This document shows positions 18,661 through 39,912 of a stretch of DNA of 64,000 bases, piece by piece. Position 1 is the stretch's first letter. Every line of letters begins with the position of its first letter. Under the pieces are notes generated by a model, which saw only the letters and a list, made by a program, of their open reading frames with translations, ran no database searches and had not been told where the DNA came from. The stretch comes from Thelephora terrestris (taxonomy: Eukaryota; Basidiomycota; Agaricomycetes; Thelephorales; Thelephoraceae): the NCBI GenBank assembly GCA_015956445.1, contig WIUZ02000020.1, forward strand, positions 620,001 to 684,000, written 5' to 3'. Both the position numbers and the translations under genes were made by a program.

Positions 18661-19146
18661 CGTTGTAACTTGTGGAAGGCGGGATCAAAATGTGATCGAA
18701 GCGTTTTTCGCCCTCTTCGTCCCCTACCGTCAGACTCAATCCCCGAGAAGTCCGATATACACCAACATCTCACAACTAGAAAAATGCCGACTTGATGTCG
18801 ACATAAACCTTGCTTGTCAATAGGAGTGTGTATTCCTATATATTTTCACAAATATCATCCGCATGTGTACATGGACAAGTATAATTATCTGTTGGTGGTT
18901 GTCAGCGTGCTGAATTTTACCCTCTTTTTAAACCATTTTCACACCCAACTTTCGCCCACTTTCCTTACCGATACCCCTTTCCTATCTTATCATCTTCCTT
19001 ATCACAACTCACACGTCATCCGAAAGGCAGAACACAGATGATATTACAGCGGGCGAACCCGCAAAGAAGACACAAGACGAATGGCCAACGGAGTTGAATC
19101 CGCACCGACCCTATGGACAGAGACTAACGTGCACCGACTCTAGTCG
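18661..19146. other. Intergenic, no gene seen
   Basis: AT-rich sequence between the methyltransferase promoter and the 3' end of the coiled-coil gene. It includes a TATATATT near 18839 and pyrimidine-rich tracts. No open frame of interest. Confidence 0.4.
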
Positions 19147-20899
19147 TCAAGACCTGGTTTGCCAGTACTCCTCAGCACTGGCAACCTCCTCCTCCGTCCC
19201 CTCCGAGGCACTCTCGACGACTTCCTCGTCGACCATCTCGATGACCCGAGCTTCCTCCCGACGATGAGCGACGGCCAGCTGAACCTCGGCACGCAGGCGG
19301 TTCCTCGCTGAATCGACCGTAGTCTGATCCAGAGTCCTCTGGACTGACCAACCCTCCACTCTCTCGGTCAGTTGAGCCACCAGGCGAACGGCCTCCGCTG
19401 CACGCTGGACCGACAAGAGCGTAAGGTCGGTTAAGCCGTTCACGTCGACGGACTCCACCGGAATCAACTCGCCGCAATCCACGCGACACTGCAGCATCGT
19501 CGCATCGGAATAGGACGGTGGACTCGATGTCTCCACCCTGGCGGACAGCGTCGGGATTGCTGGGATGCATGCGGTGGGCTGGACGAAGTGCCCCACGGTA
19601 AGGAACCCATCGGCGAGCACGGATAGAACGCTGCCCACGCACCGGAGAGATCGACGGAGGCGGAACCGGAACGGCCACCTTGTTCTCCCCCGCGTACTCC
19701 AACTCGGGAGAACTGCTAATCGGGTTCACGGCCGTCTCCTCAGACGTCTCGCGAACGACCTCCTCTCCGCCATCAGTATGTGCAGGCGTGCGGTACGACC
19801 CATCGGAAGCTAAGAGGGATGTCAGTGGACAAGCAAATATGTCAACCGGCATCCCGACCTATTGGGGAAGCCATCCGATCCGGAATCGACTCGTCCCCGG
19901 ACTCGTCACGGACCGCAGCTACCGAACGAGTATGGCAGTGGCACAATCGCTCACTCATCGACTCGACTCGAGCGCCCAGCAACGGCAAGGCGTCGTCTAA
20001 CGTATCAACCTAGAAGCGGCATGAGCTCTCTTGGTTAAAAGACCAGGAGAAGTCGCACCGACCTTGGTGTCGAGCTCATTCAGAGCCCTTCGATGACGGT
20101 TGAGCCGTCGGTCGACCTCGATCAGGTCTCGCTGAATGGTGTCGTCCCGTTCCTTCAAGGACTCCACCAATCGATTGTGTTCCTCCCGCATTGCCAGCAT
20201 CTCGCTCTCGAACGTCACGCGAAGCGTATCGTTCATTAGGAGCAGCGTCTTCTTCATGTCCAACGCCTCCGAGTACATCCTACGGGCGTCATCCTTCGCT
20301 TCCTTCACCTCGCGTTTCAACCGCTCATTCTACAGCCAATCAGTGTTATCCCACAAGCGGGATGCACAGATCGACTCACCGCTTTCTGTTCCGTCCTCAA
20401 CAGGAACCAAAGGCGGTGACCAACGGCAGCTGTGTAGTGTTGGGAACGAGTCGCCCCAGGCCATCTTCCTTCCCCGTTCCCCAGATCGTAGATTCCCATC
20501 CGTAGGAGCCCCCACAGCGACGAAGCCACCGGAGTCTCATACGGCATGCGTAACTCGGTGTTGAACGTTACCCCTCGCATCGACTCCTGCAGCTTGTGGT
20601 CGATCAAGTTGTGGTACCACAACTCATCGTCCATGGTCAGATAGCTGGGAGGCTTGGCTATTGTTGCCTCCAGTTGTCGAGCATCCACCTTGTCGGTGGC
20701 AGCAAAGATCTACGAAAGCGATGTCAGTCGAACGCCAACAACCGGCGTACGCGTGACAACGCGCCTCTCGATAACTGGGGTACGCCACATTGGCGTTCGG
20801 CAGGAAGTAGCTCTTGTTCTGCACGGACTGAGGATCCGCGGACTCGATGGTAGCAGTGCTGTTCTCAGCACGGAAGACACGGTCGGAGATCATGGGCAT
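19147..20899 (-). CDS. Hypothetical coiled-coil protein
   Basis: I do not recognise the family. From ATG 20899 (MPMISDRVFRAEN) at least six exons joined by GT-AG introns give about 500 residues. Exon 2 reads IFAATDKVDARQLEATIAK and continues through DDELWYHNLIDHKLQE. A long heptad-rich helix follows (NERLKREVKEAKDD to RHRRALNELDTK, about 95 residues). Next come an acidic Ser-rich linker and a second helical, charged region (LTLLSVQRAAEAVRLVAQLT onward). The protein ends EEVASAEEYWQTRS. The exon 1/2 junction is the weakest, because no ideal donor is in phase. The coherent frame across several introns argues for a real gene. A TATA-bearing, LTR-like stretch at 21.3 kb lies upstream, so the gene may belong to a mobile-element-associated family, but this is inference. 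Confidence 0.65.
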
Positions 20900-22375
20900 G
20901 ATGGATGAGTAGTTGGTTGGTGGAAGTGTTGGTTTGGAAGAAGGGAGTTTGATGGATCCAACGACCGGTTCGCGCTACGCTTTATTCGACCATCGACAGC
21001 GCCCGTGCCCTATTCGCCATTGGATCGGACCATCGTTTCACCGGTCCAGACTCCTCATACATTCGCCCTCGACATTCAAGCCCCACTCGGTCTTTTGTTG
21101 TCCCGATAGGACGAAGCTGACGCGTCGTCCTCCCATTGGTTCGTCCTCGCATGTGATATTATCCTTTGTCATTCCTTTCCCACACGACGTCATGACCCCT
21201 TTCTCATTCTCTCACGAACCCTGACCCATTAGTCATTCCTTTATCATTTCTATTCTATAATCCGGGCCGCTTACTGTTCCAGCTTACTCTCGGCCCTTCT
21301 TTGCTCCGAGTTATTATTAGATAGGGTTATCTATGTCTCGGCCACTCTTCTATATAAGTACCAGTAGAGTAGCTGAGGATTCCCTATCTTTGATATCTCG
21401 GGAAGTCCTCTTCTCCTTGCAGCATCGGTGTATTTGCTGTAGGCCACTGAAGAGCTTATCGAGTAACTCTCTGAACACGTTCGCTCTCCTCTCTCTCTCA
21501 GCCTTGCGTTAAGAATCGGCGAACGCGCTTACGAAAAGGAGTTCCTCGCCGCTCTCTTAATCAAGCACCAGTTTGAGGCGCCATCCTCGGGCTCTTGTAT
21601 CTGCCCTCAGAAGACGAAAGGGATTTACCTGATAGAGGCTCGGCACTCCTGCTGTGAATTCAGACAACCTACCGGAGAACGCTCGTCCATCGCGTTTTGG
21701 ACCACGTAGACTTTGGGTGGATATAGGGAAGTCGTTCCCCCTTTGCCCCATTGTTTCTTGTTGGTTGGAGTTGCGACTCACCAACAGCACTGGTACCTGA
21801 AGGGCGAAGAGTGGCCCTGACAGTGGTGTAACTGAGTGACAAGACTATGCAAACTCAGTGTGAGCCAGCTACCCAAATTCATGCCCTCAGGACCTCAAGG
21901 TCTCAACCTGTGAGATTCATAAGGGAATTGATATCAGACACCAACGGGACTGGCGTTGATTGAAGGCTTCGTTGCCAGAGTAGCGGCCGCTGGGTTTATT
22001 GATTTGCCGGGGCCGGTGCCGATTCTACTATCTCAACATTTGAACCGTCAAAATGTTCATATAGCCAGACAACACGCGCTTATAATTTAGGGGGGTCAGG
22101 GAAACCTTGCAAGCAAGGTAATTTTTTTATACCTATTTTAGCTGCACCACGTGAGTTTTAAGATCGGGTTTGACCTTCTGACGGGGCTACAGAGCCTCTT
22201 CCCCGAGGCTGCTGGAATTTTTCCTCTTCTGTGTCGATTCCGGGGGTTCCAAGGCATGGAGATAAAGAGATTCGTTGAAGTGTTGAATTGCCTGCACTTT
22301 CTAAACAGCACCAGTTAGTTGGTGGAATAGCGGCGCCATTGCATGTCCCAACTCCCCCGCCATGTTACTATGACC
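20900..22375. other. Non-coding, LTR-like promoter region without identified element
   Basis: No open frame here is convincing. A canonical TATATAAG at 21351 on the plus strand is followed by a CT-rich leader and a long transcript-like stretch without start codons, which resembles the TATA-R-U5 part of a retrotransposon LTR. I could not find TG...CA ends with matching target duplications, nor a primer-binding site. Around 22080-22130 there is a short AT-rich patch. Confidence 0.35.
21351..21358 (+). promoter_or_regulatory. TATA box in LTR-like sequence
   Basis: TATATAAG follows GGCCACTCTTC and precedes a CT-rich stretch, a good core promoter context. No coding sequence was found downstream within 1 kb, so the transcript it would drive is unknown. 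Confidence 0.45.
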
Positions 22376-22452: not shown

Positions 22453-23384
22453 CATGACACCTGGGGCGTATGCGACACTCATCGAGACCTCTGAGGTTGC
22501 GAGTTCTGCAAGAAATTCCAGGGGTGTATTCCGAGGTATCTACGCGATAAGATGGAGCGATGGAGCAAGGGATGCCGCAGAGACGTGCCTCAGCCTTCTC
22601 AACAAACCCAGGCACGTCTCAGCGGCATTCTTTGCTCAATCAGTCCACAGAATGTATTCCGAGTCTGACTGCGGTTTCCGTTCCATCTTACACCGTACAA
22701 TAAGTTGGTTCCATCACCTACGGACGATCGTACCACTCGGAATCTCGCCTTTGAATATTTGAATGGTGGAGCTATCAAATTTCGCTCCCGCATTTTACCC
22801 ACGGGCCACAGATTAACTTACTTCTCTATCGATCATAAGGGCACGATAGTTGACACTTCGTAGGTCAATACAGACGAATTTGACACAGAGGTTAAGTGTC
22901 AGACCTCAAGGCTTAACATACGATGAGCAATCCCGGCAGCAATAAGAGGAGCACTCTCAAAAAAGCGAATACACAGAAAACAAAACTTGGTTCAAAGAAT
23001 CGGCTACAAGCAAAGCGAAACCCCGGGTCAAAAGTGTCTCACCAAACGACACTTGAAGTTCTTTGAACGACACCAAAGCACGTGGAGAAAGGTGAGAGGT
23101 TGCAAGGCGTCAGCCGACATGTTATCAAACTCCTCGACCAGCTCGCTCGTGGTTGAGCATCGCTCTAAACGCACGGAGCGTTTTGTTCTTCTGCTAGTGC
23201 ATTGTGCGAAGGGAAGGAAATTTACGAGTCGAAACGAGATTGTAGTGCTCATCGGTTACGAGCATCGCCGTTTTGGAGTCTGAAACCACATAATGATGTT
23301 TAAGGAGCAACTCGTAATCTTATTCAACCACCGTTTTGGCACAAGGACCAGTAGCACAACAGTTGAAGATGGGAAAGTAAATGA
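22453..23384. other. Intergenic; right part shared with the second kinase locus
   Basis: From about 23075 to the end of this stretch the sequence is closely similar to 37533-37843, so the duplication that produced the two kinase genes includes about 300 bp downstream of their stop codons. The part before 23075 is unique in the window and shows no gene. Confidence 0.5.
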
Positions 23385-25579
23385 TCACGCCCGTGCCAAC
23401 GCAAGGCGGAGCCTCTCCAACACCATCTGAAGATTCCCAAAATCATGTTCCTTTTTCATAACCTGCCCTCTTCGCACGCCGGGGGCGAACCCTCCTTTGG
23501 GGTTAAGACAAGCAGAGTAAGTCGCTTCCCCGTCTCCACCAACCATATCAAAATCAACGAGCAGAATCCGACCACCCGATTCCGGCAAATACAGCAAATT
23601 CGGTTCTCGAAGGTCACCAAAAACCAATTGTTGTTCATGAAGCAAACGGAGAGCCTTGTGAACTTCCTGCTGGACAATTTGGGGTAGGTTCGGTGGAAGG
23701 GGGGGGCCATAATCATAGACCTTTGTGTCGGCAGAACGACCCCTCGACTCCGGGATGTACTCCATAACGACCATATACATGTCACCGATGACACGCGCAC
23801 AAAAGTGGAGAGCTGGCGCCAGCGGTGGCTTCTGACTGGCGAGCAAGCGATGAGCGGCTTCGTTGTAATTGGGAGCAAATTTGACGAAGACTTCGTGAGT
23901 GGATTCCTCAGCATCTCCCTGAGTGGATCCCTCAACCTCTCCCTGGGCGGATCCCTCGACCTCTCCCTGAGTGGATCCCTCAATCTCTCCCTGGGCGGAT
24001 CCCTCGACCTCTCCCTCAGTGGATCCCTTAGCCTGAGTCGAAGTCTTGACCTGCATCCGCGCGAGGTACATCGCGTGGGGTTCATTATCTTCGTCGATCT
24101 CTAAGAGTGGCTTCCCAGTAACGCGATCGACTTTGGCAAAGAACTCGAGTTTCGGGATGGACTGGGTCTTGGATGGATAGATTGTGGGGCGTGGCCACAG
24201 TGCTACCGTTTGTGGGGGGAGTGAGCGAGAGCCGAGCAGTAGTCCTGAGTACAGGCCGATGAGGCGTCCCATAGCTTGATTTATCGCCATGAACACCCGC
24301 CCAACGCGCAAGACATTAGCTGACCCGTGGGGCCCGAGCCGAAGCGTGACGGAGAGCAGCTCTTCGGCGTATACTTTGTTGGTGAAAATGGCGGCTGACA
24401 CGACGAGGCGATTCCCCGCGACAGCTAGTAGAATGGCAGGTAGGTTGGATCGCTCTCGGTATGGAGCATACTGTGTGATGTGATTCAGAGGCAAATTGGA
24501 TGAGGGAACGGGGTCGAACAGACCTTGTCTTGGGCAACGATCTTTCCATACGAGACTAGACCCTGTAGAAATGGGTCACCGCCGAGCCCTTGTTCATTCT
24601 TCAACTCAAAGATCAGATAGGTAAAAATGTCCCTCGTCCAAGCACCGTCTATCTTGGCTTTTCCACCTTCAGTCAGCTCCTGCCACTGGGCATCGCCTGG
24701 AAGGAGATGTCCCAGGATGGGTTTCAAGGCTGCTTCCCTGGCGTGTTCGTTGTCGTGAAAATCAGCAGACTGGGCAACAAAGTCAAAGGCATTATCCAAC
24801 GTGCTAGGATCCGGGGTAAGCAACTCGAGGTGGTCGAGTTGGTGTTTCAAAAGCGCCAGCGGCGGACTGAAAAGGGCTACGGGTGGACCAAAGCGGTGGC
24901 AAGGTCTTCCATATCGTGGTCCGTTAGGGTCATTCGAGATTTCCTTGACTGCAGCGGGGTTCTTGATGCAATCAGATGGTGAAGTGCCCCGTTGGATGCC
25001 CTTGAATGTTGCATTTCGCGCTGTAGGAAACGAACATAGGTATCCAGGAATACAAGGTTGGAAAAACTCTCACCCTTGACGTACTTGAATTCACCCACGG
25101 TCCCATGCGAAGCTTCGGTGACTGTGGGACGACCAGTTAGAGAGGGACTCAGGTTCGAATGTGGAGACGCACTGTCTGGGGTAACGACCACAATGTCAAC
25201 CATCTTAAGCGATTTGACATGTGGGCCTTGAGGAAATGATTCCACTATAGCATCGCGCCTGGAAATCTGGGCGTCTTCGGCTGCCCGGTTGATCCACTCG
25301 TAGATTTTTTGCGTGGAGCCATCGCACACGTCTGCTTGGCTGAGGTCACTGGCCTGTAATTGTGGTCAGAGGTATGCACCGCTTATTGACAGACAAGCTG
25401 CTTGCCTTCCAGAGGGTGGCCTTTTTGAAATCTTCAATATACTCTGGATCTGTATATTCTTTTTCAAGCTGGTCAAGGATATCTCTCCGATCCGTCTCTG
25501 CATCTACTCTGCATCGGCAGCAGCGGTCTTCTTGGTTAAGTGATGGATGAGGGTAGGCGACGATGTAAGTTACGGTCAT
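23385..25579 (-). CDS. Crinkler-like protein with C-terminal kinase-like domain, copy 1
   Basis: Exons from ATG 25579 give a short N-terminal header (MTVTYIVAYPHP..., ending IEDFKKATLWKASDLSQADV) resembling the ubiquitin-like header of CRN proteins with its LWK motif. A middle region with the basidiomycete signature GDPFLQGLVSYGK, SNLPAILLAVAGNRLVVSAA follows, then a kinase-like lobe. The lobe has VFVKFAPNYNEAAH (ATP-site lysine), ALHFCARVIGDMYMVVMEYI, the catalytic loop FGDLREPNLL and the metal-binding LLVDFDMVG. The HRD motif is replaced by FGD with Arg, as is common in this fungal group. The intron after TLWK uses a GC donor. A 24-bp minisatellite lies in frame before VFVKF. CRN-type proteins are known as host- or competitor-directed effectors; that role is only inferred. 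The crinkler label is moderately sure, the kinase-like fold more so. Confidence 0.7.
23897..24028 (+). repeat. In-frame 24-bp minisatellite in kinase copy 1
   Basis: Five full 24-bp units starting at 23897, 23921, 23945, 23969 and 23993, plus a partial one, follow the pattern GAGTGGATCCCTCAACCTCT plus CCCT and alternate with a GGGCGG-starting variant. On the coding (minus) strand each unit adds eight residues of the type GSTQGEVE or GSAQGEVE. The paralog at 37.8 kb has only the residual AKGSTHE at the same point, so the array expanded after the duplication, or was lost in copy 2. Confidence 0.85.
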
Positions 25580-25639
25580 GGTTGAAGCTGAGCGTGATTC
25601 AGCGGGTCACGTGAACACTACTCACTCGATCCGTCGGGC

Positions 25640-26789: not shown

Positions 26790-29040
26790 CTGTCGTCGAG
26801 GGGCAATAATCAGAGGAAGGCCAAAAAGCCAGACATCTGCACCAACCAGAAGTGCCACTACCGCCACAACCACGAGTTTGTCGAGTGTCGATCGGTTGGT
26901 AGGCCGCTTTACGGGCAGAACCCACCCTCTTATTACCAGGCGAACAGCCAATCTAGTGGACAGAGGAGAAGTAGAAGCCAGGAAGGAAGGAACACTCAGC
27001 AGGTCATGCGGGCGAATGTTGTTCACGAGGAAGAGGACGTCTCTGAAGAGCACGCCTTTACCGTGGCTACCTCCTTGAGTGTCACTGACGCTGGTCTTTG
27101 CACCGCCAGCCCACTCGAATGCATCAAAATCTACGACAGCAGTGCCAGCTGCCATATGTCTCCCTATCGTGAGGCCTTCACTGACTTCTGTCCCATCAAC
27201 CCTCGGCCGATCTCAGGTGCCGACTCCCGAACGTTTGAAGCCATTGGCAAGGGATCCATTCAGATCGCCATACCGAACGGCAACGACTCTACCACTGTTA
27301 CCCTCCGTGACGTTCTGTATGCACCGACCATTGGGTTCACTTTGATCTCCCTGAGTCGTGCTGATAGGGCTGGCTACTCTACCCTCATTCGGGATGGGGA
27401 TCTCTACATCCTGGATCAGGGGAATGACGATGCTGTCATTGGCAGGGTTCCCACTCGAAACGGCCTCTGGAGTATTAAGAGAACGACCAAAGCCCTGGAG
27501 AATGGCGTAAGCCTGCTCCCAGGCACTCACGCACTTACGGCCGTCTCACTGATGGACCTGCACCGTTGCCTTGGCCACATTTCTCCTGCCGCCGTCATCA
27601 ACCTCGTAGACAAGAATATCCTCACGGGTGTAACGCTTCAAGATCGCAACGTTGAATTTTGCAAAGTCTGTGCACTTGCAAAAATCAGACGTCACCCCTT
27701 CCCGAAGTTGCGCGCACATCCTGCTCAGGAAATCGGCGACGTCATCCACTCTGATCTATGGGGACCCGCGCAGGTCACCGCGCTCGGAGGTAGTCACTAC
27801 GCGATCACGTTCATCGACGAATGTTCCCGTTTTGGGATTGTTGGGTTCCTACGTGCCAAAGACAAGTCTTTTAAGGAGTACAAGCACTTTGAGTCTTGGC
27901 TCCTGGTCCAATTTGATCGACGCGTCAGGTGCCTGCAGTCTGATCGAGGGGGCGAGGACACGAGCAACAAATTCACCGAGTATCTCCGTGAGCGAGGGAC
28001 CGTTCGACGGCTGACTGTGCATGACTCTCCGCAGTCGAACGGGATCGCTGAGCGCTGCAATGGCGTCTTGGTTGCACACGCTCGTGCTCTACTCATTGAC
28101 TCGGGGCTGCCGAAGTTCCTTTGGAAGGAGGCCATGCAATTCTCCATGTGGATCAGGAATCGAACCACAACCCACCACTTGGATGGACGCACTCCCTATG
28201 AGGTCCTTTATGGTGCTAAACCGGAGATAGGTGGGATTCATTTGTGGGGATCACGAGTTTGGGTTTGCAGCCTCACAGCCGGGAAGCTTGACCCGAGGGG
28301 GCGAGAAGGACACTTTGTTGGCTATGACGATGAAAGCAAAGGCTGCCGTATCTACTGGACCGACTCTCGCACGATCGGTGTCGAACGCGACCTCATCTTC
28401 GAGGACAGACCGACGGATAACGAAGTTGTCTTCCTACCTGAGGCGTCCACCACGAAGAACCAACCGAAACCTGTCCAACCTCCTTCAAACCACCGCAACC
28501 CCTCTCCATCTGAAGCTCTAAACGACATCTCCCCCACCAATATCCCACTTCCATCAGATGAGGACGAGACCGAGGACACTGCCCAGGATCACGATCACGA
28601 GGGCCCCACGCAGATCACCGCGCCAGCTCCCGCATCCGACGAGTCCATCCAAAGTGTCACTCCCTCTGTCAGGCAATCCTCGCGAGTCCGGAGGCCGACC
28701 AAACGTTATGTTTCGACTGAAACGGACGACACTACGACTCGAGGAAAGCTAAGGCCTCCGAAAGGTTCTCGGGCACCGCCTGGACTTACGGTCATCAACG
28801 AGGAGGACGAGACACTGACGTCACTCAATCCCGAGATCCGTGCTATTGAATCTGCAATGGCCGTTCAGATCAAAGACGGAACACCTGATGATGATCCGAA
28901 GACCTTGGCGCAGGCCATGGCTCGTCCTGACTGGCCGGAATGGGAGAAAGCTATGGAAGAGGAGATGTCACTCATGAGGAAGTACAGCGTCTGGGACATT
29001 GTCGCTGAACCTGCTGATGCCAACATCGTTGGGAGCCGCT
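26790..29040 (+). pseudogene. pol: Copia pol 5' part: zinc knuckle, protease, integrase, start of RT
   Basis: In frame with gag across the stop, this reads a variant zinc knuckle (C-x4-C-x5-H-x4-C, from CTNQKC), the aspartic protease motif IYDSSASCHMS (DSSAS in place of DSGAS/T), the GAG-pre-integrase HRCLGH...C-x2-C finger, and the integrase core: HSDLWGP, LQSDRGGE and SNGIAERCNG, that is D, D and E. A Ser/Pro-rich linker and the start of RT (WPEWEKAMEEEMSLMRKYSV) follow. The frame then runs into the inserted element at 29041. A methionine at 27006 begins the longest stop-free part after the knuckle, but it is not a real start. Confidence 0.88.
29036..29040. repeat. Target-site duplication CCGCT, left
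   Basis: CCGCT directly precedes the left end TGTCAGGG and is repeated at 31347-31351 after the right end GTGACA. Removing the element plus one copy restores the copia reading frame (S-R-W-V-F-R-I-K). Confidence 0.95.
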
Positions 29041-29060
29041 TGTCAGGGTTGTGGGCCTGC

Positions 29061-29684
29061 TTACTGTTTATGGGGCGCTAGAGGATTAGCGGACGGATGA
29101 GGGGTGTCGGGTCTAGTTTTGAAGGGGGTTCCGGGTGTGGAGACGAGGGGAGGAGGAATATCCAGAGAGAGGGGTGACTCCGTCTGATAAGGGTGAACGG
29201 GTGAGTGGTAGTCTTGGCAGAACTGATTGAGTTGCTGCACAAAAGGTTCGAAGTCTTGATCGCTAAGGCGTTCGAAGTTGACGAGGTATTCTATAACCGA
29301 ATAAGGTAATTCAGTTGGGATCTCCCACCAAAGGACAATGATAGCGGGGGAATGGGTGTGGATGTTAGTGGTAAGATGAATACGTGGGGAGGGAAAGTAG
29401 AAAGCTGGGCTGATACTGAAGTAGACGGTCGCAAGGACGCTCTCAGTGAGATCCGAATTCCAAAGGAATTGATGATCTGCTCCTAGGAGAAATGGGGGAG
29501 TTGTGACTCCAGCGTCGAGAGCTGCAAAGGGTCGATAGTAAGGAAAATGGGTGAGTAAACCGGTGGTTCGGTTTACTTGAAGACTCCTGATGAGTTTATA
29601 CTCCCAGATAGATCTCCTGGCGTCAGGGACAACTGGTCGCTGGACTGGGCTTGTAGAGGGGAAGGGATTGGGAGCACTGAACAT
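29061..29684 (-). CDS. TGTCA element gene A (207 aa), copy 1
   Basis: The product is not recognised. The 207-residue frame starts MFSAPNPFPSTSPVQ and contains a conserved core: RRSIWEYKLIRSLQVN, HFPYYRPF, LLGADHQFLWNSDLTESVL, IVLWWEIPTELPY and FEPFVQQLNQFCQDYHSP. The C-terminal 40 residues are Pro/Thr-rich. The protein is likely soluble: no signal peptide and no membrane segment. The copy at 33466-34089 is the same length with 17 substitutions, mostly conservative (I/V, R/K, E/D), and no gap or stop. This suggests selection on the protein before or between insertions. A TATA box lies about 145 bp upstream. The frame ends 20 bp from the element terminus. Confidence 0.75.
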   Translation of the reverse strand: MFSAPNPFPSTSPVQRPVVPDARRSIWEYKLIRSLQVNRTTGLLTHFPYYRPFAALDAGVTTPPFLLGADHQFLWNSDLTESVLATVYFSISPAFYFPSPRIHLTTNIHTHSPAIIVLWWEIPTELPYSVIEYLVNFERLSDQDFEPFVQQLNQFCQDYHSPVHPYQTESPLSLDIPPPLVSTPGTPFKTRPDTPHPSANPLAPHKQ

Positions 29685-29828
29685 ACACTAGCAGGAGGAT
29701 TCCTGCTGAAATGAGTTAGAAAAGGCAAGGCGTGAGGAGAATTCCTCAGCTTACTTTTATTCAAGTTGTGGGTAGAGGAGTACAGAAGAGATTGAGAATG
29801 GGGAAGAGAAAGGAGCGAACGCCCTTCC

Positions 29829-29836
29829 TTATATAC
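29829..29836 (-). promoter_or_regulatory. TATA box of gene A, copy 1
   Basis: On the minus strand GGGTATATAAGGAAGG precedes the gene A start by about 145 bp. The same sequence stands at the same distance in copy 2 (about 34238-34245). Confidence 0.6.
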
Positions 29837-29999
29837 CCAATCCTTTACAGGAGTCACTATTTTACAATGAGTCAAACATGAGTCAACATGGTCTGTGCGT
29901 AGTTTAGGGTAGGTTGGACGAGTTAGGGGAGTGGGACTTTGGAACGACAAATGACGAAATGAAATAAGGGAACAATAGTGACGGGGTCATTAGGAGCAT

Positions 30000-30140
30000 A
30001 ATGGGGATTTCTCTCGATCGACGGTGGTAATAGAAGACTGGTGGGGATTTCTCGCGATCGGTGGGAACTTCTCTCGTTTCACGGTAGCAATAGAAGATGG
30101 ATGGGGATTTCCCATGATCAATGGGGACTTTCTGAATTGA
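30000..30140. repeat. Imperfect ~63-bp repeats in element centre, copy 1
   Basis: Repeated TGGGGATTTCTC and GGTAGCAATAGAAG motifs lie between the two promoters. The same motifs occur at about 35405-35555 in copy 2, where two units of GGTAGTAATAGAAGC...GGTGGGGATTTCTC are clear. They may be subterminal-type binding sites moved to the centre, or regulatory repeats. Confidence 0.65.
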
Positions 30141-30240
30141 TGGGATCGCGATTGGGGCTGAGGGTTCGTTTATCCTAATGAGGATGTTAATGGATAATAG
30201 GTTATTGTTTTCCCCTTTTGGTTTTCTTTGAGTCAGGATG

Positions 30241-30247
30241 TATTTAA
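30241..30247 (+). promoter_or_regulatory. TATA-like box of gene B, copy 1
   Basis: TATTTAA stands 97 bp upstream of the gene B start. In copy 2 the same TATTTAA stands 101 bp upstream (35657). Confidence 0.55.
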
Positions 30248-30337
30248 GTCAGGGGGATTAATGATCGTTCCCCTCATCGTCTCTTCTCCACTCCCACCAA
30301 ATCGACCACTACTCTCTCCCATACATCTTATCTTACC

Positions 30338-31241
30338 ATGTCTGCCTTCGTCGCCAGCAACGCCGTGCTTAACGCTGCCGCCACTCCCTTTACTCCGTCC
30401 TTTGAGACGGATGCTCCTTACAATGTGGAGCAACACTTGTACGACACCCCCGCCAACATCGCCCATGACAATCAGGTGGCGGTAGGCTTCTTGACCGCTC
30501 ACAACGCTCCTGCCGAATTCTGGGAACAGGCCGGGTATGAAGACCCCCGACTTGCTAGACCTCAGGTTGAGGCTAGGCACCCTGGAGCCGTCCTTCTGTT
30601 GGACGCCATGGAGAGGGAGCGGGAGGACCGGATTGCGAAATTGGAGAAGCGCGTGGATCTCATGTACGTCATCATGAATAGCTTGAATGATGACTTCTCT
30701 CACTTTGCTTTGGAACATTGGGGACCTTTCCAGGCATCTCTCTTCCGATACTTCGGACATCAATGCCACGGGGCTTATTGCACCGACCCCCCTTGCAAGT
30801 CCCCAGTCATCCCTTTGCCACCGCCAGGATCAGGGCGTTCCTCTCCCTCCATCCCCTCCCTGGAGTCCTGCCCCAGTTCGCCAGATGGTGGAGAGGTCCC
30901 AGAAGAAGAAGACCCGCAAGAGTCCGATGACTCGTTCTGGTCAACGTTGTTGTCCCTCCGACAAGTCACGTCAGGTCCGGATGAAGTTGAAGGTGGAAGT
31001 GGCGGGTCTCCAAGACCGCTATGGGTTCGCATTAGTGAGCGCAGCCTTGTCGGACGTGAAGCGAGAGATGCATGATAGTTTGTATCATGATGTGTTGGGG
31101 TGTCGGGACTGTTGGCAGGATCCGGTGACGCTGGCGTATTTGTATTGTCCTGAGAGTATACACAACCCTCATCATTTTGCTCACCGTTGCCCGTTTGCTC
31201 AGGACTGTGCTTGTGACGTAGATCCGTTTGTCTTGGTTTAG
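30338..31241 (+). CDS. TGTCA element gene B, copy 1 (frame change near 30.9-31.0 kb)
   Basis: The product is not recognised. From ATG 30338 it reads MSAFVASNAVLNAAATPF, then a helical part with AHNAPAEFWEQAGYEDP and REDRIAKLEKRVDLMYVIM, a possible short coiled coil, and a Cys/His patch GHQCHGAYCTDPPC, followed by a Pro/Ser-rich acidic linker. The first frame would stop at 31075. The other frame, open to 31241, gives VEVAGLQDRYGFALVSAAL, LGCRDCWQDPVTLAYLYCP and HRCPFAQDCACDVDPF, a second Cys-rich, possibly zinc-binding segment. Comparing the two element copies, the changes after about 30970 are almost all synonymous in this second frame and not in the first. So the real protein changes frame there, through a short intron (AG at 30977 is a candidate acceptor) or frameshifting. 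Confidence 0.7.
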
Positions 31242-31346
31242 ATTTGCGATCGTTACTAGCTCCATTTGTACTTCTAGTAGTTCGAATAAGACCAATGTCT
31301 TTGATTATCTGTGCAATCTTGGCTACCATGTCACGCGTTCGTGACA

Positions 31347-31351
31347 CCGCT
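31347..31351. repeat. Target-site duplication CCGCT, right
   Basis: CCGCT follows the right end GTGACA and matches 29036-29040. Confidence 0.95.
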
Positions 31352-32126
31352 GGGTTTTCCGCATCAAGCGAGACTCGAATGGGAAGATCCTTAAGTATCG
31401 GGCCCGGCTCGTTGCTCAAGGCTTTACCCAGATGTACGGTGTCGATTTCCAGGACACCTTTGCTCCTGTCGCTCGACTATCCTCCATACGTACGGTCATC
31501 GCCCTTGCTGCATCCGAAGATTGGGAACTGCATCAGATGGACGTCAAGTCGGCGTACCTGAACAGCCCTATCGACACTCCCGTCTATATGCGCCTTCCTC
31601 CCGGATACACCCAAAAAGGAAAGGTAGCTAAAGTCAATTGGGGTCTCTACGGATTACGCCAGAGCGGTAACTTATGGCATAAAACTCTCTCTTCTGCTTT
31701 CGACAATCTGGGCCTAACTCGATCCGCCGTGGACCACGGAGTGTTCTTCTCACATGACAACGGTGGGACGACCATTGTCTGCTCTTCCACTGACGACTTT
31801 GCGATCGCTGCCACCCCCGTTGCACGGATGACCCAGTTCAAGGCGGCTCTCGGGAAGCACTTCGAGATGTCCGATCTAGGGGAACTAGCCTGGATTCTCG
31901 GGATAAAAGTTGACCGTGATAGGGAATTGAGAACAATCTCGCTGTCTCAGACGGCCTATATCGACTCTCTCATCAAACGGTTCAACCTTGTTGATGCACC
32001 TCCTCTCACGATGCCAATCGACCCACACGCCCTTCTTACGACGAACCAGTCCCCATCCACTCCTAACCAGTTCGAGGAAATGAAGAATGTGCCGTATCAC
32101 GAGGCTGTAGGATCTCTCATGTACGC
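31352..32126 (+). pseudogene. pol: Copia pol 3' part: reverse transcriptase, truncated
   Basis: The RT resumes exactly in frame after the insertion: WVFRIKRDSNGK, YRARLVAQGFTQMYGVDF, DTFAPVARLSSIRTVIALAA, QMDVKSAYLNSPI, VYMRLPPGY, NWGLYGLRQSGNLWH, the catalytic STDDFAIA (STDD at the YVDD position), LGELAWILGIKV and VPYHEAVGSLMYAV. The coding match stops at about 32126. The following bases (TGTCGGGTTCG) are unrelated and run to a chance stop. The end of RT, all of RNase H and the 3' LTR are missing. Confidence 0.88.
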
Positions 32127-33445
32127 TGTCGGGTTCGTGGGGAGTGTAGTGTTATTTCCTATACGGAAGATAACTAACACCCTTTGGTTTGCTTAGAGAC
32201 TAGAGTATAGAAACCAAGCAGGCTGGTTGATTAGTCAATGAACTCGACTAACAACTCCACAGGGTAGAGCGGGGTTCCTCTTTCCGGCTCTTGGTCCTGA
32301 TGAGTTCGCTGGGGATCTACTAGTAGTGTGTCCCTCAGTAATTCTTCTTAGGGAATCAGTAATGTTATCACTCAGGGGCTCTGTACACTCTGATTAGACA
32401 CCTAACTTCACCGTGGGAATCTATGTTCTGATAGGAATGGGGTTCCTGACTCAAGGATGGGCCTTGAGGCTGTGCTTGAGGCTGTGTAATAGTCCTGTCC
32501 TTAGGCTGTACCTAAAGCTGTGTCGAGGCTGTGTCGTGAAGCTAAACCAAATAAGGAAGGTGCACACTTACACCTGAGGCTGTGCTTGATATGTCGTAAA
32601 AGTGACAAGATATGTCGTAGAGCTTATAGAGGTATGTCAGATACCTTAAACTTGCTACAGATGACACCTAGTGCGTCAAACAAATATAACTTCAAATAAA
32701 CTTGGGATAAAATGATATGTCGTAGAATATGTTGGAGACCTTTGTGGTACTTGCTAAATCTGGCTGTTACCTAGACAAACACTCTTCTGAAGTGGAGGGC
32801 TATCTGCCTAAAGTATCAGACTTCAGCAATACAGACACCAAAAACTCCAACGTCACAAGTGTGCTAGGCTTGATCAGTACTTCTGACTTAGTGCTTCTTC
32901 ACACAGAGGATGAGGCTGAAAGTGGTATGTGATTACTCAAAATCACTCAACCAATCAGTCCTAAGGGGTAGGGGGTAGATGAAAAGTTGTGGGGGAAAAC
33001 TAGCAAAGAGAGCCTCAGTCTAGGTGAAGACTGAGCTGTTGGTGATTTTCCTTGAGTAGTGGGTGAGCTGCTGTCCTGGTGGGGTGAACTGACTATCCCT
33101 TAGAAGTGTGGTTGAGGTCTATATATACTAATTTACAGGAGAATGTCCCAGAACATTCCAACGCATTCCACATTATTCCATAACATTCCATCATGTTCCA
33201 TGGCATTCCGTCTTGTTCCTTTGGGTGACCAGTGGTCACATCTGTGACATTCCGTCACCTTCTAGAATGTTCCATTACCTTCTAATACGTTCCGGTGTTC
33301 TCCAGTAGGCTCCAAGGAATTCCATGATTTTCCATGATTTTCCAGGCTTATCTTATCTCTTATCTTATCTATTGTCCTTATCTTATCAAATGAATAAACA
33401 ATTATCCATAAAATATTCCTGCTTGGGCTGTAAGTACACTATTAA
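32127..33445. other. Unidentified inserted DNA X, left part
   Basis: The sequence begins TGTCGGGTTCGTGGGG where the copia homology breaks off and is AT-richer than its surroundings. It has several copies of GAGGCTGTG (about 32460-32590), of ATATGTCGTA (32590-32720) and of a CATTCCA motif (33140-33340), plus a TATATATA near 33120. No protein is recognised. It continues after the second TGTCA element (from 36772), and a CCGACA at 36814-36819 could be its inverted right end. The flanking bases (TACGC and ACGGC) do not match as a target duplication, so the right end is unproven. Confidence 0.5.
33441..33445. repeat. Target-site duplication ATTAA, left
   Basis: ATTAA directly precedes TGTCAGGG and recurs at 36767-36771 after GTGACA. 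Confidence 0.93.
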
Positions 33446-33465
33446 TGTCAGGGTTGTAGGCCTGC

Positions 33466-34089
33466 TTACTGTTTGTGGGGCGCTAGAGGATTAGCGGATG
33501 GGTGTGGAGTATCGGGTCGAGTTTTGAAGGGGGTTCCGGGTGTAGAGACGAGAGGAGGGGGAATGTCGAGCAAGAGGGGTGACTCTGTTTGATAGGGATG
33601 GACAGGCGAGTGATAGTCCTGGCAGAATTGTTCTAACTGTTGTACGAACGGTTCGAAGTCTTGACCGCTGAGTTCTTCGAAGTGAACGAGGTATTCTATA
33701 ATTGAATAAGGCAATTCAGTTGGAATATCCCACCAAAGGACGATGAGAGCAGGGCAGTGAGTATGAACGTTGGTGGTGAGATGAACTTTTGGAGAAGGGA
33801 AGTAAAAGGCGGGGCTAACGCTGAAGTAGACTGTTGCTAGAACGCTCTCAGTGAGGTCCGAGTTCCAGAGAAACTGATGATCTGCACCTAAGAGGAAAGG
33901 GGGAGTGGTGACTCCTGCGTCGAGGGCAGAAAAGGGACGATAGTATGGGAAATGGGTGAGTAGACCGGCTGTTCGGTTTACTTGGAGACTTCTGATGAGT
34001 TTATACTCCCAGATAGACCTCCTGGCGTCAGGGACGGTTGGTCGTTGGACTGGACTAGTAGATGGAAAGGGATTTGGGGAACTGAACAT
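33466..34089 (-). CDS. TGTCA element gene A (207 aa), copy 2
   Basis: This is the homolog of the 29.1-29.7 kb gene, 207 residues with no gap and 17 substitutions. It starts MFSSPNPFPSTSPVQ. The most conserved parts are RRSIWEYKLIRSLQVN, LLGADHQFLWNSDLTESVL and FEPFVQQL; the last 36 residues are identical. The function is unknown. Its stop codon again lies 20 bp inside the left end of the element, so the 3' UTR and polyadenylation must lie in the terminus or in flanking DNA. Confidence 0.75.
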   Translation of the reverse strand: MFSSPNPFPSTSPVQRPTVPDARRSIWEYKLIRSLQVNRTAGLLTHFPYYRPFSALDAGVTTPPFLLGADHQFLWNSDLTESVLATVYFSVSPAFYFPSPKVHLTTNVHTHCPALIVLWWDIPTELPYSIIEYLVHFEELSGQDFEPFVQQLEQFCQDYHSPVHPYQTESPLLLDIPPPLVSTPGTPFKTRPDTPHPSANPLAPHKQ

Positions 34090-34237
34090 ACACTGGCAGG
34101 AGAATTCCTGCTTGGATGAGTTAGAGAGAGTAAAACGTGAGGAGAATTCCTCAGCTTACTTTGTTTATTCACGTTGTGGGTAGGGAGGTACAGAAGAGAT
34201 TGAGAATGGGGAAAAGAAAGGAGCGAACGCTCTTCCT

Positions 34238-34245
34238 TATATACC
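34238..34245 (-). promoter_or_regulatory. TATA box of gene A, copy 2
   Basis: The minus strand reads GGGTATATAAGGAAG, the same as in copy 1. Confidence 0.6.
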
Positions 34246-34349
34246 CGATCCTCTACAGGAGTCATTATTCTACAACGAGCCAAACAGGAGTCAACATGGT
34301 CTGTGCGTAGTTTAGGGTAGGATAGATGAGTCAGAATGAGGGGTCTTAG

Positions 34350-35395
34350 AACGACAAATGGTAATACTAGTACGGTGAACTGCTACTATCCGGGTGGAGT
34401 CGGGACACGACCAGAATAGCAGGAGTGGGGGTGAGGGGTCACCGGTTGTGCAGAGGTCGGGAAGGGGAGAGAAGCTAGGCAGAGGAGAGGGAACCACGGT
34501 AGGTCGCGACGTTGTCGGGATGAGAAGGGAGAACTCCGTACTAGCAAACTCCTGCTAGACGATGACGATGGGCTAAGGGGCTAGTGGGCGATGGGCTAGT
34601 AGGCTAGGGGTCTATTGGAACTATGGGGCTAGTGGAATCGATGTCAGAGCGAGGAGCTGGAGGTTTTCGATGATCAGGTCGTTCAAGCAGAAGGGAGAAG
34701 AGGTGTGAAGAGGCCCAGGGGTTTCTTGGTCGTTCAACTAGCTAGTACAGGGTATTTATAGGTAAAGACAGTGCGATCTACGCGAAAGAGATGGGAAAAG
34801 TAGCGAACAAATGGAGAAACGGTGGGAGAATAAGAACAGGTAGATAGAAGGGGATAAACGAGAGTCCGATGCAGGGTAGGGAGACAAACGGTTCATCGGG
34901 AGGCCGGAACGAGGCTGGGACAGGTCTTACCGAGAGGATGGAGCGATCGTGAGAAACAGGACCGAAAGGGGAAGTCTACGGGTTCGAGATCAAAAGATCG
35001 TAACCGGGCGGGAGAGCGGGAGCAGTTGAAGATGATTGGCGAGCGAGAGGGAACGAGTCGACACGTGTATGGACTGAAGGGAACCGGACCGAGGGAGGGG
35101 ACACGTCATCTCGGCGAGATAAGGGATCGGGAGACATCGGCCGATCGCAACATCACGTGCCGTTCGGGGAGGACGGCCACGGAGGCAGAAACAGCGTGCG
35201 ATGACGCGCGTCGAAGGGATCGCGGGAACGGTTCGATGATCGGGGCGTCAAGTGGGCGTGACCCTCCTGTGACCGATCGAGGGGTCGTCGGCTCGCGTAG
35301 TCAGTAGCTAGCGGGGTAGGGAGGTAGGGACTGGGGACTAGCACTAGATTCGAAGGTCGCGCGAATAGACAGCGGGTCAACGGGAGCGGTTGAGA
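34350..35395. other. Extra central segment of copy 2
   Basis: About 1 kb without counterpart in copy 1, richer in GC, with purine-rich plus-strand sequence (GGGAGAACG, GATCGGGAG). A 93-codon plus frame at 35026-35307 is highly charged and looks like translation of that purine bias rather than a gene. No target duplication or inverted ends were found at its edges, so copy 1 may have lost it rather than copy 2 gained it. Confidence 0.5.
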
Positions 35396-35656
35396 TGCGA
35401 GTCGATGGAAGCATCGGGGATTTCTCGTGTTTCATGGTAGTAATAGAAGCGTGGTGGGGAATTCCCATGATTGATGGGGATTTCTCTGGATCAATGGTAG
35501 TAATAGAAGCACGGTGGGGATTTCTCATGATCGATGGGGATTTCTCAGGGTTTGATGGGATCGCGATCGGGGCTGAGGGTTGATTTACCCTAATTAGGAC
35601 TTCAATGGATGATGGGTTATTGTTTTCCCTTTCCGGTTGCTCTTTGAGTCAGGATG

Positions 35657-35663
35657 TATTTAA
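35657..35663 (+). promoter_or_regulatory. TATA-like box of gene B, copy 2
   Basis: TATTTAA stands 101 bp upstream of ATG 35758, in the same context (GAGTCAGGATG before it) as in copy 1. Confidence 0.55.
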
Positions 35664-35757
35664 GCCAGGGGAATTAATGATTGTTCCCCTCATCGTCTCT
35701 TTTCCACTCCCACCAAACACCAGTACTACTCTTTCCTCTAAAACCTCCACCACCATT

Positions 35758-36661
35758 ATGTCTGCCTTTGTCGCCAACACCGCCGTGCTCAGCGCTGCCG
35801 CCACCCCCTTTACTCCGTCCTTCGAGGCGGATGCTCCCTACGACGTGGAGCAACACTTATATGACTCCCCTGCCAACATCGCTCACGACAACCAGGTCAC
35901 CATCAACTTCCTTACCGCCCATAATGCTCCCGCCGAGTTCTGGGAACAAGCTGGGTACGAAGACCCCAGACTTTCTAGGCCTCCGGTTCAGGCTCCACAC
36001 CCTGGAGCCGTTCTCTTATTGGACGCCCTGGAGAGGGATAGGGAGGATAGGATTGCGAAATTGGAGAAACGGGTGGACCTTATGTACGTCATCATGAACA
36101 GTTGGAATGATGACTTCTCTCATTTTGCTTTGGAACATTGGGGACCTTTCCAGGCATCTCTCTTCCGATATTTCGGACACCAATGTCGCGGGGCTTATTG
36201 CACCGACCCCCCTTGCAAGTCCCCAGTCATCCCTTCGCCACCGCCAGGATCAGGGCGTTCCTCTCCCTCCATCCCCTCCCTGGAGTCCTGCCCCAGTCTG
36301 TCAGATGGTGGAGAGGTCCCAGAGGAAGAAGAACCGCAAGAGTCCGATGACTCGTTCTGGTCAACGTTGTTGTCCCTCCGACAAGTCACGTCAGGTTCGG
36401 ATGAAGTTGAAGGTGGAAGTGGCGGGTCTCCAAGACCGCTATGGGTTCGCCTTAGTGAGCGCAGCCTTGTCGGACGTGAAGCGGGAGATGCATGATAGTC
36501 TCTATCATGATGTGTTGGGATGTAGAGAGTGTTGGCAAGATCCGGTGACGCTAGCATACTCGTATTGTCCTGAGAGTGTATACAACCCTCATCACTTCGC
36601 TCATCGTTGCCCGCTTCCTCAGGACTGTACTTGCGACGTGGACCCGTTTGTTCTTGTTTGA
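35758..36661 (+). CDS. TGTCA element gene B, copy 2 (frame change as in copy 1)
   Basis: This is the homolog of the 30.3-31.2 kb gene. It starts MSAFVANTAVLSAAATPF and keeps the DREDRIAKLEKRVDLMYVIM helix, the GHQCRGAYCTDPPC patch and, in the second frame, LGCRECWQDPVTLAYSYCP and CDVDPF. The first frame stops at 36495, the second at 36661. Both copies share the same frame architecture, so the change is an ancestral feature (intron or recoding), not a mutation of one copy. Confidence 0.7.
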
Positions 36662-36766
36662 TTTTGTAGTTCTTATTAGTTGCTTTTGTACTATTACGTT
36701 TACGAATAAGACCAATGTCTTGAATTACCTGTGCGATCTTGGCTACTATGTCACGTGTTCGTGACA

Positions 36767-36771: not shown

Positions 36772-37843
36772 TTGTGCGAAAAATAGTAAATAAATCATGA
36801 TTAATCCAGGGGTCCGACAACGGCACACGTCGGAAGCAAATTTGGCTGAGGGTTGCCGGTCCCCACAACTTGCTTCCAAAACGGGTATTGTGGTTGGACT
36901 GAATCAAGTTCGTAGGTGAGGAGGACTTAGTTTAGACACGGGAGGTACAGGGAGAGGCATTGAATGTTATCGCAGTAGGCCCAATTAACACGCTCAGCTG
37001 CTCGACAAAGGTCTTGTCGTCTCCGGGTTTGGTTGGTCGCGTGCAAATAAATATCGACATCCCCAGGTGTGAATTTTATTTCGACCTCCTCGCACCAGGG
37101 ACCGTTCGTTGCCTTCGGACGGACAAAACGGGTGCTTTTGTTTTACCATTGATCTATCCTAGGCTCGACAGGTTATCAATCTTGCGGGGACAATACGAGG
37201 GACGATGAACTTGCATGGGCGTACCGACTCGGATAGTCTCTTGGACTTGGGGGTTTTTTTTTCGGTCGCCTCACTCCGGAAATATGAGAATATTCGTGAT
37301 TGTTAGAAAATGCTACGCGAAAATACATGTTCGAATACGATAAAATAGCGCTCAAATCGCTGGATGTCTTTGAGGATCGCGAGGAGTCAATTTCATCGAC
37401 CAGGATCGCTACCGGTCACTGCCGGTCAACGAATTTCTTACCGGGCGTCACTCTCCAGCGCTGGGGATTGCGAATCAGGGTCGGTCAGCCAGAAGGACAC
37501 CGAACGCTTGTGTCCTGGCGAAACCCCAGTGACAAAAGCACGTGGAGAAAGGTGAGAGAGGTTGCAAGGCGTCAGCCGACATGTTTATCAAACCCCTCGA
37601 CCAGCTGCTCGTGGTTGAGCATCGCTCTCAGACGCACGGAGCGTTTTTCTTTCTGCTAGTGCATTGTGCGAAGGGAAGGAGATTTACGAGTCGAAACGAG
37701 ATTATAGTGCTCAACAGTTACGAGCATCACCGTTTTCGAGTCTGAAACCGCATAATGGTGTTTAAGGAGTAACCCGTAATCGTATTCAACCATCCTTTTG
37801 TCACAAGGACCAGTAACACAACCGTAGAAGATTGGAAAGTAAA
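36772..37843. other. Right remainder of X, then intergenic, then kinase downstream homology
   Basis: Bases up to about 36819 (CCGACA) may belong to X. The next 700 bp show no gene and no trace of the missing copia 3' part. From about 37533 the sequence matches 23075-23384, the downstream flank of kinase copy 1. Confidence 0.45.
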
Positions 37844-39912
37844 TCACGCCCGGGCCAACGCAAAGCGGATCCTCTTCAACGTCATCTGAAGATTCCCAAA
37901 ATCATGTTCCTTTTTCATAACCTGCCCTCTTTCCACGCCGGGGGCGAACCCTGCCTCGGGGTTCAGACAAGCAGAGTAAGTCGCTTCCCCGTCTCGACCC
38001 ACATTATCAAAATCAACGAGCAGAATCCGACCACCCGATTCCGGCAAATACAGCAAATTCGGTTCTCGAAGGTCACCAAAAACCCATTGTTGTTCATGAA
38101 GCAAACGGAGAGCCTTGAGAACTTCCTGCTCGACAACTCGAAGTAGATTCGGTGGAAAGGAGGGACCATGAACCGGTACGTCGGCGGAACGACCCCTCGA
38201 CTCCGGGATGTACTCCATAACGACCATATACATGTCACCGATGACGCGCGCACAAAAGTGGAGAGCTGGCGCCAGCGGTGGCTTCTGACCGGCAAGCAAT
38301 CGATGAGCGGCTTCGTTGTAATTGGGGGAAAATTTGACGAAGACTTCATGAGTGGATCCCTTAGCCTGAGTCGAAGTCTTGACCTGCATCCGCGCGAGAT
38401 ACATCGCGTGGTGTTCATTGTCTTCATCGATCTCCAAGAGTGGCCTCCCAGTAGCGCGATCGACTTTGGCAAAAAACTCGAGGTTCGGGATGGACTGGGT
38501 CTCGGATGGATGGACCGTGGGGCGTGGCCACAGTGCTACCGTCTGCGGGGGGGGGGGTGAGTGAGAGGCGAACTGTAGCTTTACGTACAGGCCGTCGAGG
38601 CGTTCCATAGCTTGGTTTATCGCCATGAACACCCGCCCAACGCGCAAGACATTAGCTGACCCGTGGGGCCCGAGCCGAAGCGTGACGGAGAGCAACTCTT
38701 CGGCGTATACTTTGTCGGTGAAAATGGCGGCCGACACGACGAGGCGATTCCCCGCGATGGCCAGTATAATGGCAGGTAGGTTGGAGAACTTTCGGTATCG
38801 AGCATACTGTGTGATGTGAGTCTGAGGCAAGTTGAACGAGGAAACGGAGTCGAACAGACCTTGTCTTGGGTAACGATCTTTCCATACGAGACTAGACCCT
38901 GCAGAAATGGGTCACCACCGAGCCCTTGTTCATTCTTCAGCTCGAAGATCAGATAGATAAATGAGGCAGCCCGAACACCACCCTGCTTGACTTTTCCACC
39001 AGTCAACGTTTGCCACCTAGTGTCGTCTGGAAGGAGATTTTTCAGGATGGGATTTAAAGCTCTTTCCCTGTCGTTTTCGTTTTCGTAAAAATCAGCGGAC
39101 TGGGTAACAAATTTAAAGGCATTATCCAACGTGCGGGGATCCGGGGTAAGCAGCTCGAGGTGGTCGAGTTGGTGTTTCAAAAGCGCCAGCGGCGGACTGA
39201 AAAGGGCTATGGGTGGACCAAAGCGGTGGGAAGGTCTTCCATATCGCGGTCCGTCAGGGTCGTTCGAGGTTTCCTTGACTGCAGCGGAGCTCTTGACGGA
39301 ATCAGATGGCGAAAGGCCACGTTGGATGCCGCTGCATGTTGCATTTCGCGCTGTAGAGAATGAACACACGTATCCAGGAATACAAGGTTGGGAAGACTCT
39401 ACCCGTGACGTAGTTAAATTTACCCAAGTACCTACCCAAAGCTTCGGTGACTGTGGGACGACCAGTTAGAGAGGGATTCAGGTTCGGATGTGGAGACGCA
39501 CTGTCTGGGGTAACGACCACAATGTCAACCATCTTAAGCGATTTGACATGTGGGCCTTGAGGAAATAATTCCACTATAGCATTGCGCCTGGGAATCTGGG
39601 CGTCTTCGACTGCCCGGTTGATCCACTCGTAGATTTTTTGCGTGGAGCCATCGCACACGTCTGCTTGGCTGAGGTCACTGGCCTGTAATTGTGGTAAGAG
39701 GTATACACCGGTTACATATTGACAGACAAGTTGCTTGCCTTCCAGAGGGTGGCCTCTCTTAAATCTTCAATGTACTCCGGCCTTACGTATTCTTGTCCAA
39801 GCTGGTCAAGGATATCTCTCCGATTCGTCTCTGCATCTACTCTGCATCGGCAGCAGCGGTCTTCTCGGCCAAATGATGGATGAGGGTAGGCGACGATGTA
39901 AGTTGTGGTCAT
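37844..39912 (-). CDS. Crinkler-like protein with C-terminal kinase-like domain, copy 2
   Basis: This paralog of the 23.4-25.6 kb gene has the same exon structure and strand. From ATG 39912 it reads MTTTYIVAYPHPSFGRED and RPEYIEDLREATLWK, then the GC-donor intron, VKSLKMVDIVVVTP, LLKHQLDHLELLTPDP, GDPFLQGLVSYGK, SNLPAIILAIAGNRLVVSAA, VFVKFSPNYNEAAH, VFGDLREPNLL and LLVDFDNVG, ending LKRIRFALARA. It lacks the 24-bp repeat array of copy 1. The kinase lobe keeps the ATP-site lysine and both acidic residues. One middle exon (about 39302-39420) shows the weaker alignment to copy 1 and its splice sites are less sure. An effector-type role is inferred only from the CRN resemblance. Confidence 0.7.

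Follow-up and report, generated by a model that had tools for sequence, protein, structure and literature searches.

Our analysis describes a mobile element of the ectomycorrhizal fungus Thelephora terrestris that carries two genes within 2.3 kb and has moved many times in its host genome. We consider it probable that this element (family 1) is a gene-bearing solo long terminal repeat (LTR) of a third Ty3/gypsy family, by analogy with two resident families, F1 and F2, whose LTRs also carry genes. The copy from which the study started, copy 1, lies at 29041..31346 of the window, the whole stretch of 64,000 nucleotides that was analysed; it starts TGTCAGGG and ends TTCGTGACA, with CGTGACA as its last letters. 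Target duplications of CCGCT flank it on the left (29036..29040) and right (31347..31351), and it splits a copia element (26790..32196, plus strand) into an integrase part on its left and a reverse transcriptase (RT) part on its right. Joining the flanks minus one CCGCT gives an open frame (...GSRWVFRIKR) across the copia RT. The TGTCA/TGACA ends, the duplication and the restored frame are all as the earlier note on this DNA had described them, and the gene said to end 20 bp from one terminus is gene A, whose stop codon is found there. Its account of two divergent genes stands, both being orphans, but needs one correction, in that the second, gene B, encodes two overlapping products by way of an optional 70-nt intron. 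The terminal inverted repeat is 5 bp; the element has no terminal direct repeat, and its internal repeats are all short. Imperfect 20/40-bp repeats between the genes (29980..30130) differ in number from copy to copy, and a 3'-terminal palindrome, TGTCACG-CGTT-CGTGACA (31329..31346), has exactly this sequence in 21 of 27 copies.

Repeated movement is read directly from the genome sequence, which holds 328 5' ends and 239 3' ends at three mismatches or fewer (5 and 0, respectively, for the reversed-pattern controls). Among 31 distinct complete copies the 5-bp duplication is exact in 24, has one mismatch in two and two or more in five, while pairing left and right flanks across different copies gave no match in 930 comparisons. 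Two neighbouring copies at C12 (L036 and L015) lack a duplication, and the outer flanks of the two also mismatch. Empty sites emerged from comparing L020 with L004, and C59 (filled, duplication CCTCC) with C16 (empty). Some copies are nested inside other transposons, several of them within the repeat R considered below. Identity among 27 aligned copies has a median of 87% and reaches 96%, and an older relative, roughly 70% identical, still has its 3' end and both frames of B; its gene A has decayed. The window holds a second copy (33446..36766, duplication ATTAA) whose two genes are about 1 kb farther apart; its gene A lies at 33466..34089 on the minus strand and its gene B at 35758..36661 on the plus strand (B1 to 36495, intron 36084-36153, coordinates by offset from copy 1). 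At C13:553171-558349 two inverted copies have the same 15-nt outer flank, either as an inverted duplication or through a shared junction.

Gene A (29061..29684, minus strand) encodes an orphan protein of 207 aa and is full length in 23 of the 27 aligned copies. Upstream of it lie a presumed 5'-UTR intron (29706..29754, minus strand; GTAAGC...AG, with donor and AG each in 27/27 copies) and a presumed promoter, TATATA (29830..29835, minus strand; 27/27). An inner stop is absent from 140 of the best 150 of 403 candidate genome matches to P0005, a relative of A, a count made from the match table on a sample biased toward good copies. Variation along most of the gene is about 0.2 at third codon positions and 0.01-0.05 at the others; third positions take 190 of 245 shared variants and 69 of 133 singletons, and parsimony omega is 0.09 on terminal as well as on internal branches.

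Gene B is read from the plus strand behind a presumed promoter, TATTTAA (30241..30247; 24/27 copies). Exon 1 (30338..30663) is common to both products and is followed by the GT-AG intron (30664..30733), which is coding if retained and has GT..AG in all 27 aligned copies; the same junction appears in three NCBI gene models (P0033, P0041 and P0043). The unspliced product B1 (30338..31075; 245 aa, intact in 21/27) has a coiled-coil-like stretch and an acidic tail. The spliced product B2 continues into exon 2 (30734..31241; 277 aa in all, intact in 23/27) and has a basic stretch and a Cys/His-rich end. Where the B1 tail and B2 overlap in two frames (30734..31075), variants per site (0.45-0.53) fall below those of single-frame coding sequence (0.61-0.75) and of the part between the genes (0.87). 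Both products are probably made. Parsimony omega is 0.18 on terminal and 0.22 on internal branches for exon 1 and 0.12-0.18 for the B2-only part; strong purifying selection acts on both genes, A as well as B. The tree test, based on parsimony omega, gave no rise on terminal branches, and hence no sign of relaxed selection there. The singleton counts disagree with it on this point, third positions in exon 1 taking 97 of 167 shared variants but 27 of 76 singletons; the tree may be disturbed where copies have recombined with each other.

Searches of Pfam (to E 10) and PHROGs with A, B1 and B2 returned nothing better than E 0.16, and a sequence search of the PDB with A and the B products gave no match of note (best E 0.087). 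Among 5.8 billion proteins there are 10 relatives of A and 39 of B1; all that carry an organism name are from T. terrestris, the rest coming from JGI, ENA and another source, and NCBI lists several as hypothetical proteins. Across the protein, Pfam, PHROG and PDB sequence searches no named homologue of A, B1 or B2 was found, and Pfam profiles detected no rve, DDE transposase, helicase or tyrosine recombinase domain in A or B. The absence of a recognisable transposase claimed in the earlier note was thus borne out by profile searches. Its suggestion that A or B is a novel mobility protein found no support. The ends, TG..CA on a TGTNR pattern, and the 5-bp duplication are typical of gypsy-type integrases. 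The question of class, which it had left open, finds a candidate in the gypsy LTR, a class it had not considered.

F1 and F2 are chromodomain gypsy families with LTRs of 3.3 kb (R) and 2.9 kb (R2). F1 has CCHC gag, protease, Tf2-type SH3, chromodomain, RT and integrase core domains, and F2 has protease, Tf2-type SH3, chromodomain, RT and integrase core. R measures 3299 bp in L027 (L027:4146-7444), has the ends TGTCAGG..CCTGACA, and adjoins F1 on both sides, the upstream R ending at L037:755 and the downstream R starting at L038:973; both the L027 copy and the downstream stretch L038:973-3501 carry an antisense gene. At C23:1032000-1048000 two same-strand gypsy RT matches with identical scores are separated by 9310 bp. 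This spacing agrees with a 6.0-kb interior and one 3.3-kb LTR, the LTR length derived from it being about 3.29 kb; the two matches probably share one LTR (LTR-int-LTR-int-LTR). R2 (2923 bp) adjoins F2 as R does F1, and the window itself holds a solo R2 for comparison (18900..21822, plus strand; 2923 bp, duplication GTGGT) with its antisense gene. R and R2 both start TGTCAG, and the one copy read for each family has a 5-bp duplication. Their antisense genes are homologous to each other (hhalign E 6e-14), with a helical domain, a coiled-coil-like part and an acidic tail, and vary with codon periodicity, coverage being about 2-6 copies over most of the R gene and 2-3 copies over that of R2. Most copies of R are single: there are 200 exact 5' ends (with a pyrimidine at -15) against 8 long RT matches that their scores place in F1 (seven have E 8.1e-31, the eighth 5.6e-30). 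From the 100 R 5' ends listed, 86 of the 15-nt flanks were readable, and 3 of these 86 have a polypurine junction, each beside an RT match assigned to F1.

Family 1 itself yielded neither a paired copy nor a primer-binding site or interior. Its listed 5' flanks (100 of the 112 matching the pattern, out of 328 5' ends in all) hold no recurrent junction except the nested site C6/C31 and the inverted pair at C13. If the share seen for R (3/86) is applied to family 1, about three junctions would be expected, so that the miss is mild and not decisive. Inspection by eye of the 150 best gene-A copies revealed no same-strand pair 7-9 kb apart with room for gag-pol; gene-A pairs at 7.5 kb and 9.0 kb have family-2 copies in between. 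The larger relative with an RT inside the same ends, which the earlier note had proposed as a counter-case, was searched for and not found for family 1; RT was found in F1 and F2, where the LTRs on either side of it resemble family 1 in style but not in sequence. Apart from the final 7 bp, BLAST gave no trustworthy DNA match of family 1 to R or R2, and hhalign gave no similarity worth the name between proteins A and B and those of R and R2. What family 1 and R have in common is only their TGTCAGG/CCTGACA ends; LTR families differ freely in sequence, so similarity is not strictly defining.

Several candidate partners were examined and were rejected or found no support. Family-1 sequence is missing from nine of the ten stretches fetched beside RT/integrase matches, and a role as LTR of the elements behind these ten was not upheld. 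The copy in L066 (C59:1195867), 4 kb behind an RT match, starts 94 bp past a better polypurine-TG junction; given this offset and the lack of a polypurine run before the copy, it looks inserted into that element's own LTR. No LTR pair was shown among the close direct copies fetched, both members having their own exact duplications at L027, L029 and L034; a fourth such pair (C17) has a duplication on its one readable member, and this verdict leaves out the pairs at C23 and C1. Family 1 is not the LTR of the gypsy family F3, as the copy at C59:693916 is a single insertion (CCTCC) with its empty site at C16. The copia family F8 was set aside as a source on its LTR, TGTTGA..TCAACA. Guessed self-priming junctions gave two matches for family 1, about chance level, and none for family 2; self-priming is also unproven for F1, with a match of 9 nt (reached by 10 of 500 shuffles), and for F2, with one of 6 nt (234 of 500). 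A repeat with an integrase core was rejected as mobiliser because its one visible border does not fit. This repeat (L044:888-6143 and L045) spans 5.3 kb, is 99.4% identical between two contigs, includes a 92-aa ORF with an integrase core and lacks a nearby RVT_1 match among those listed; it may be a DNA transposon that encodes an integrase of gypsy type, one border having been seen.

The genome holds a second family of such single units. Family 2 (2417 bp, TGTCAGGCC...CATCACA, L032:3097-5513, equal to C12:1204596-1207012) has the style TGTCAGG..CA, one multi-exon orphan gene and highly conserved non-coding ends. It gave 307 candidates at first look, 40 of which were scored; of six distinct copies four were testable, and all four have 5-bp duplications. 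No same-strand pair within 15 kb was seen by eye among the 43 matches listed.

Our comparison suggests a model in which family 1 is the LTR of a Ty3/gypsy element, probably a chromovirus like F1 and F2, that is single through LTR-LTR recombination or is known only in this form. The integrase of this retrotransposon would be responsible for the TG..CA termini and for the duplication of 5 bp at the target. The LTR would bear two genes on divergent promoters, with gene B giving two proteins through its optional intron, and A and B would aid the spread of the retrotransposon as regulators of transcription, RNA handling or escape from silencing, not as recombinases. This role for A and B is a guess, modelled on the antisense genes of plant retrotransposons.

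We think it rather unlikely, though worth keeping in view, that family 1 is instead a free, LTR-like DNA unit of 2.3 kb without RT or transposase, on whose single copies the integrase of a resident chromovirus acts in trans. A and B would then serve the unit itself, in DNA copying, regulation or defence against silencing, and family 2 would give this genome another lineage of such units, unrelated to the first. Such a unit would account for the lack of any paired copy, for the exact duplications on both members of the L027, L029 and L034 pairs, and for the missing recurrent interior junction in the 100 flanks; the introns on both strands in 27/27 copies fit movement as DNA or as full-length unspliced RNA, and the concentration of shared A variants at third positions also agrees with it. 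Single R and R2 LTRs are, however, explained without such an idea, clean insertion has exceptions (the 5 of 31 copies without duplication, including the C12 neighbours), and we know of no case in which a gypsy integrase mobilises single units of this kind. We favour the solo LTR over the free unit on the strength of the single R LTRs, the mildness of the flank miss and the LTR-only families of S. pombe.

It is improbable that family 1 is an autonomous DNA transposon with TG..CA ends whose recombinase, from a family not yet described, is A alone or A together with B2. The intactness of A and B2, each in 23 of 27 copies, the survival of the B frames and 3' end in the older relative and the lack of a match of note in the Pfam, PHROG and PDB searches would suit such an enzyme, but A and B are small and without a catalytic domain by profile search, A is decayed in that same relative, and the terminal inverted repeat measures merely 5 bp. 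Very improbable indeed is a host gene family, spread by repeats and kept in its expansion by selection on the fungus: omega is low on both terminal and internal branches and A singletons still lean to third positions, yet singletons in B exon 1 are nearly even over codon positions, as in a replicating element, and the precise ends, duplications and nesting in other transposons speak against it.

The closest likeness to the proposed solo LTR is in R and R2, which have the TGTCAG start, the TGACA end, the 5-bp duplication, kilobase length and a gene inside the LTR, R also occurring in many single copies; they differ in sequence and proteins, in having one antisense gene where family 1 has two divergent ones, and in that their interior is known. 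Chromoviruses of the Tf1/sushi and Tcn1-like types and the solo-LTR families of S. pombe make 5-bp duplications, and their LTRs are short and gene-free. TRIM and LARD elements consist of a short or non-coding interior flanked by a pair of direct LTRs, unlike family 1 with its lack of a terminal direct repeat. Helitrons and Cryptons make no target duplication and have a helicase or a tyrosine recombinase, whereas the element has duplications and neither domain, and cut-and-paste DDE transposons have a recognisable DDE transposase, of which Pfam finds none in A or B. LTR-only families are a further likeness to these chromoviruses and S. pombe families, as reported in PMC7175516 (see also PMC2864245); eight of nine LTR families of S. 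pombe are given as existing only as LTRs or fragments (PMC7175516). The plant elements Retand, Grande and RIRE2 carry conserved extra genes antisense to gag-pol that are suspected regulators, but these ORFs are described as lying between pol and the 3' LTR, not within the LTR (PMC11963269). The TGTNR terminal pattern is reported as common to gypsy and Ginger elements, matching the TGTCA of family 1, and TDD-4 and TDD-5 also make 5-bp duplications; Ginger/TDD-4 elements differ in having their own inverted repeats of 40-297 bp and a gypsy-like integrase, both missing here (PMC2836005). PlavakaA has similar ends (TGT..ACA), but Plavaka elements are described with 2-bp duplications and a transposase (PMC12730594). 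A piece of Plavaka transposase adjoins one copy of family 1 (L003).

LTRs are usually viewed as regulatory DNA, and here the kilobase-long LTRs of two chromovirus families bear constrained antisense genes. Genes carried by terminal repeats are unusual and raise the question of their role; among the papers listed from an open-access library, judged by title and abstract opening, none dealt with this element or with fungal LTRs that contain genes. If family 1 is an LTR, it would add to these a third design, with two genes and a pair of overlapping reading frames, single LTRs would scatter retrotransposon genes through the genome of the host fungus, and gene annotation would count some of these as host orphan genes. 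The role of LTR-borne genes for element or host thereby becomes testable.

Other repeats were seen in passing. Near-perfect palindromic repeats, 97-98% identical, occur at L029:3791-7869 (4.1 kb) and L021:4339-5682 (1.3 kb), the latter with ends CACTGGGGG reminiscent of EnSpm-type elements. Within the window, 23072-25615 and 37532-39948 share two directly repeated stretches, roughly 0.8 and 1.6 kb long, that are 89-91% identical and lie about 14 kb apart.
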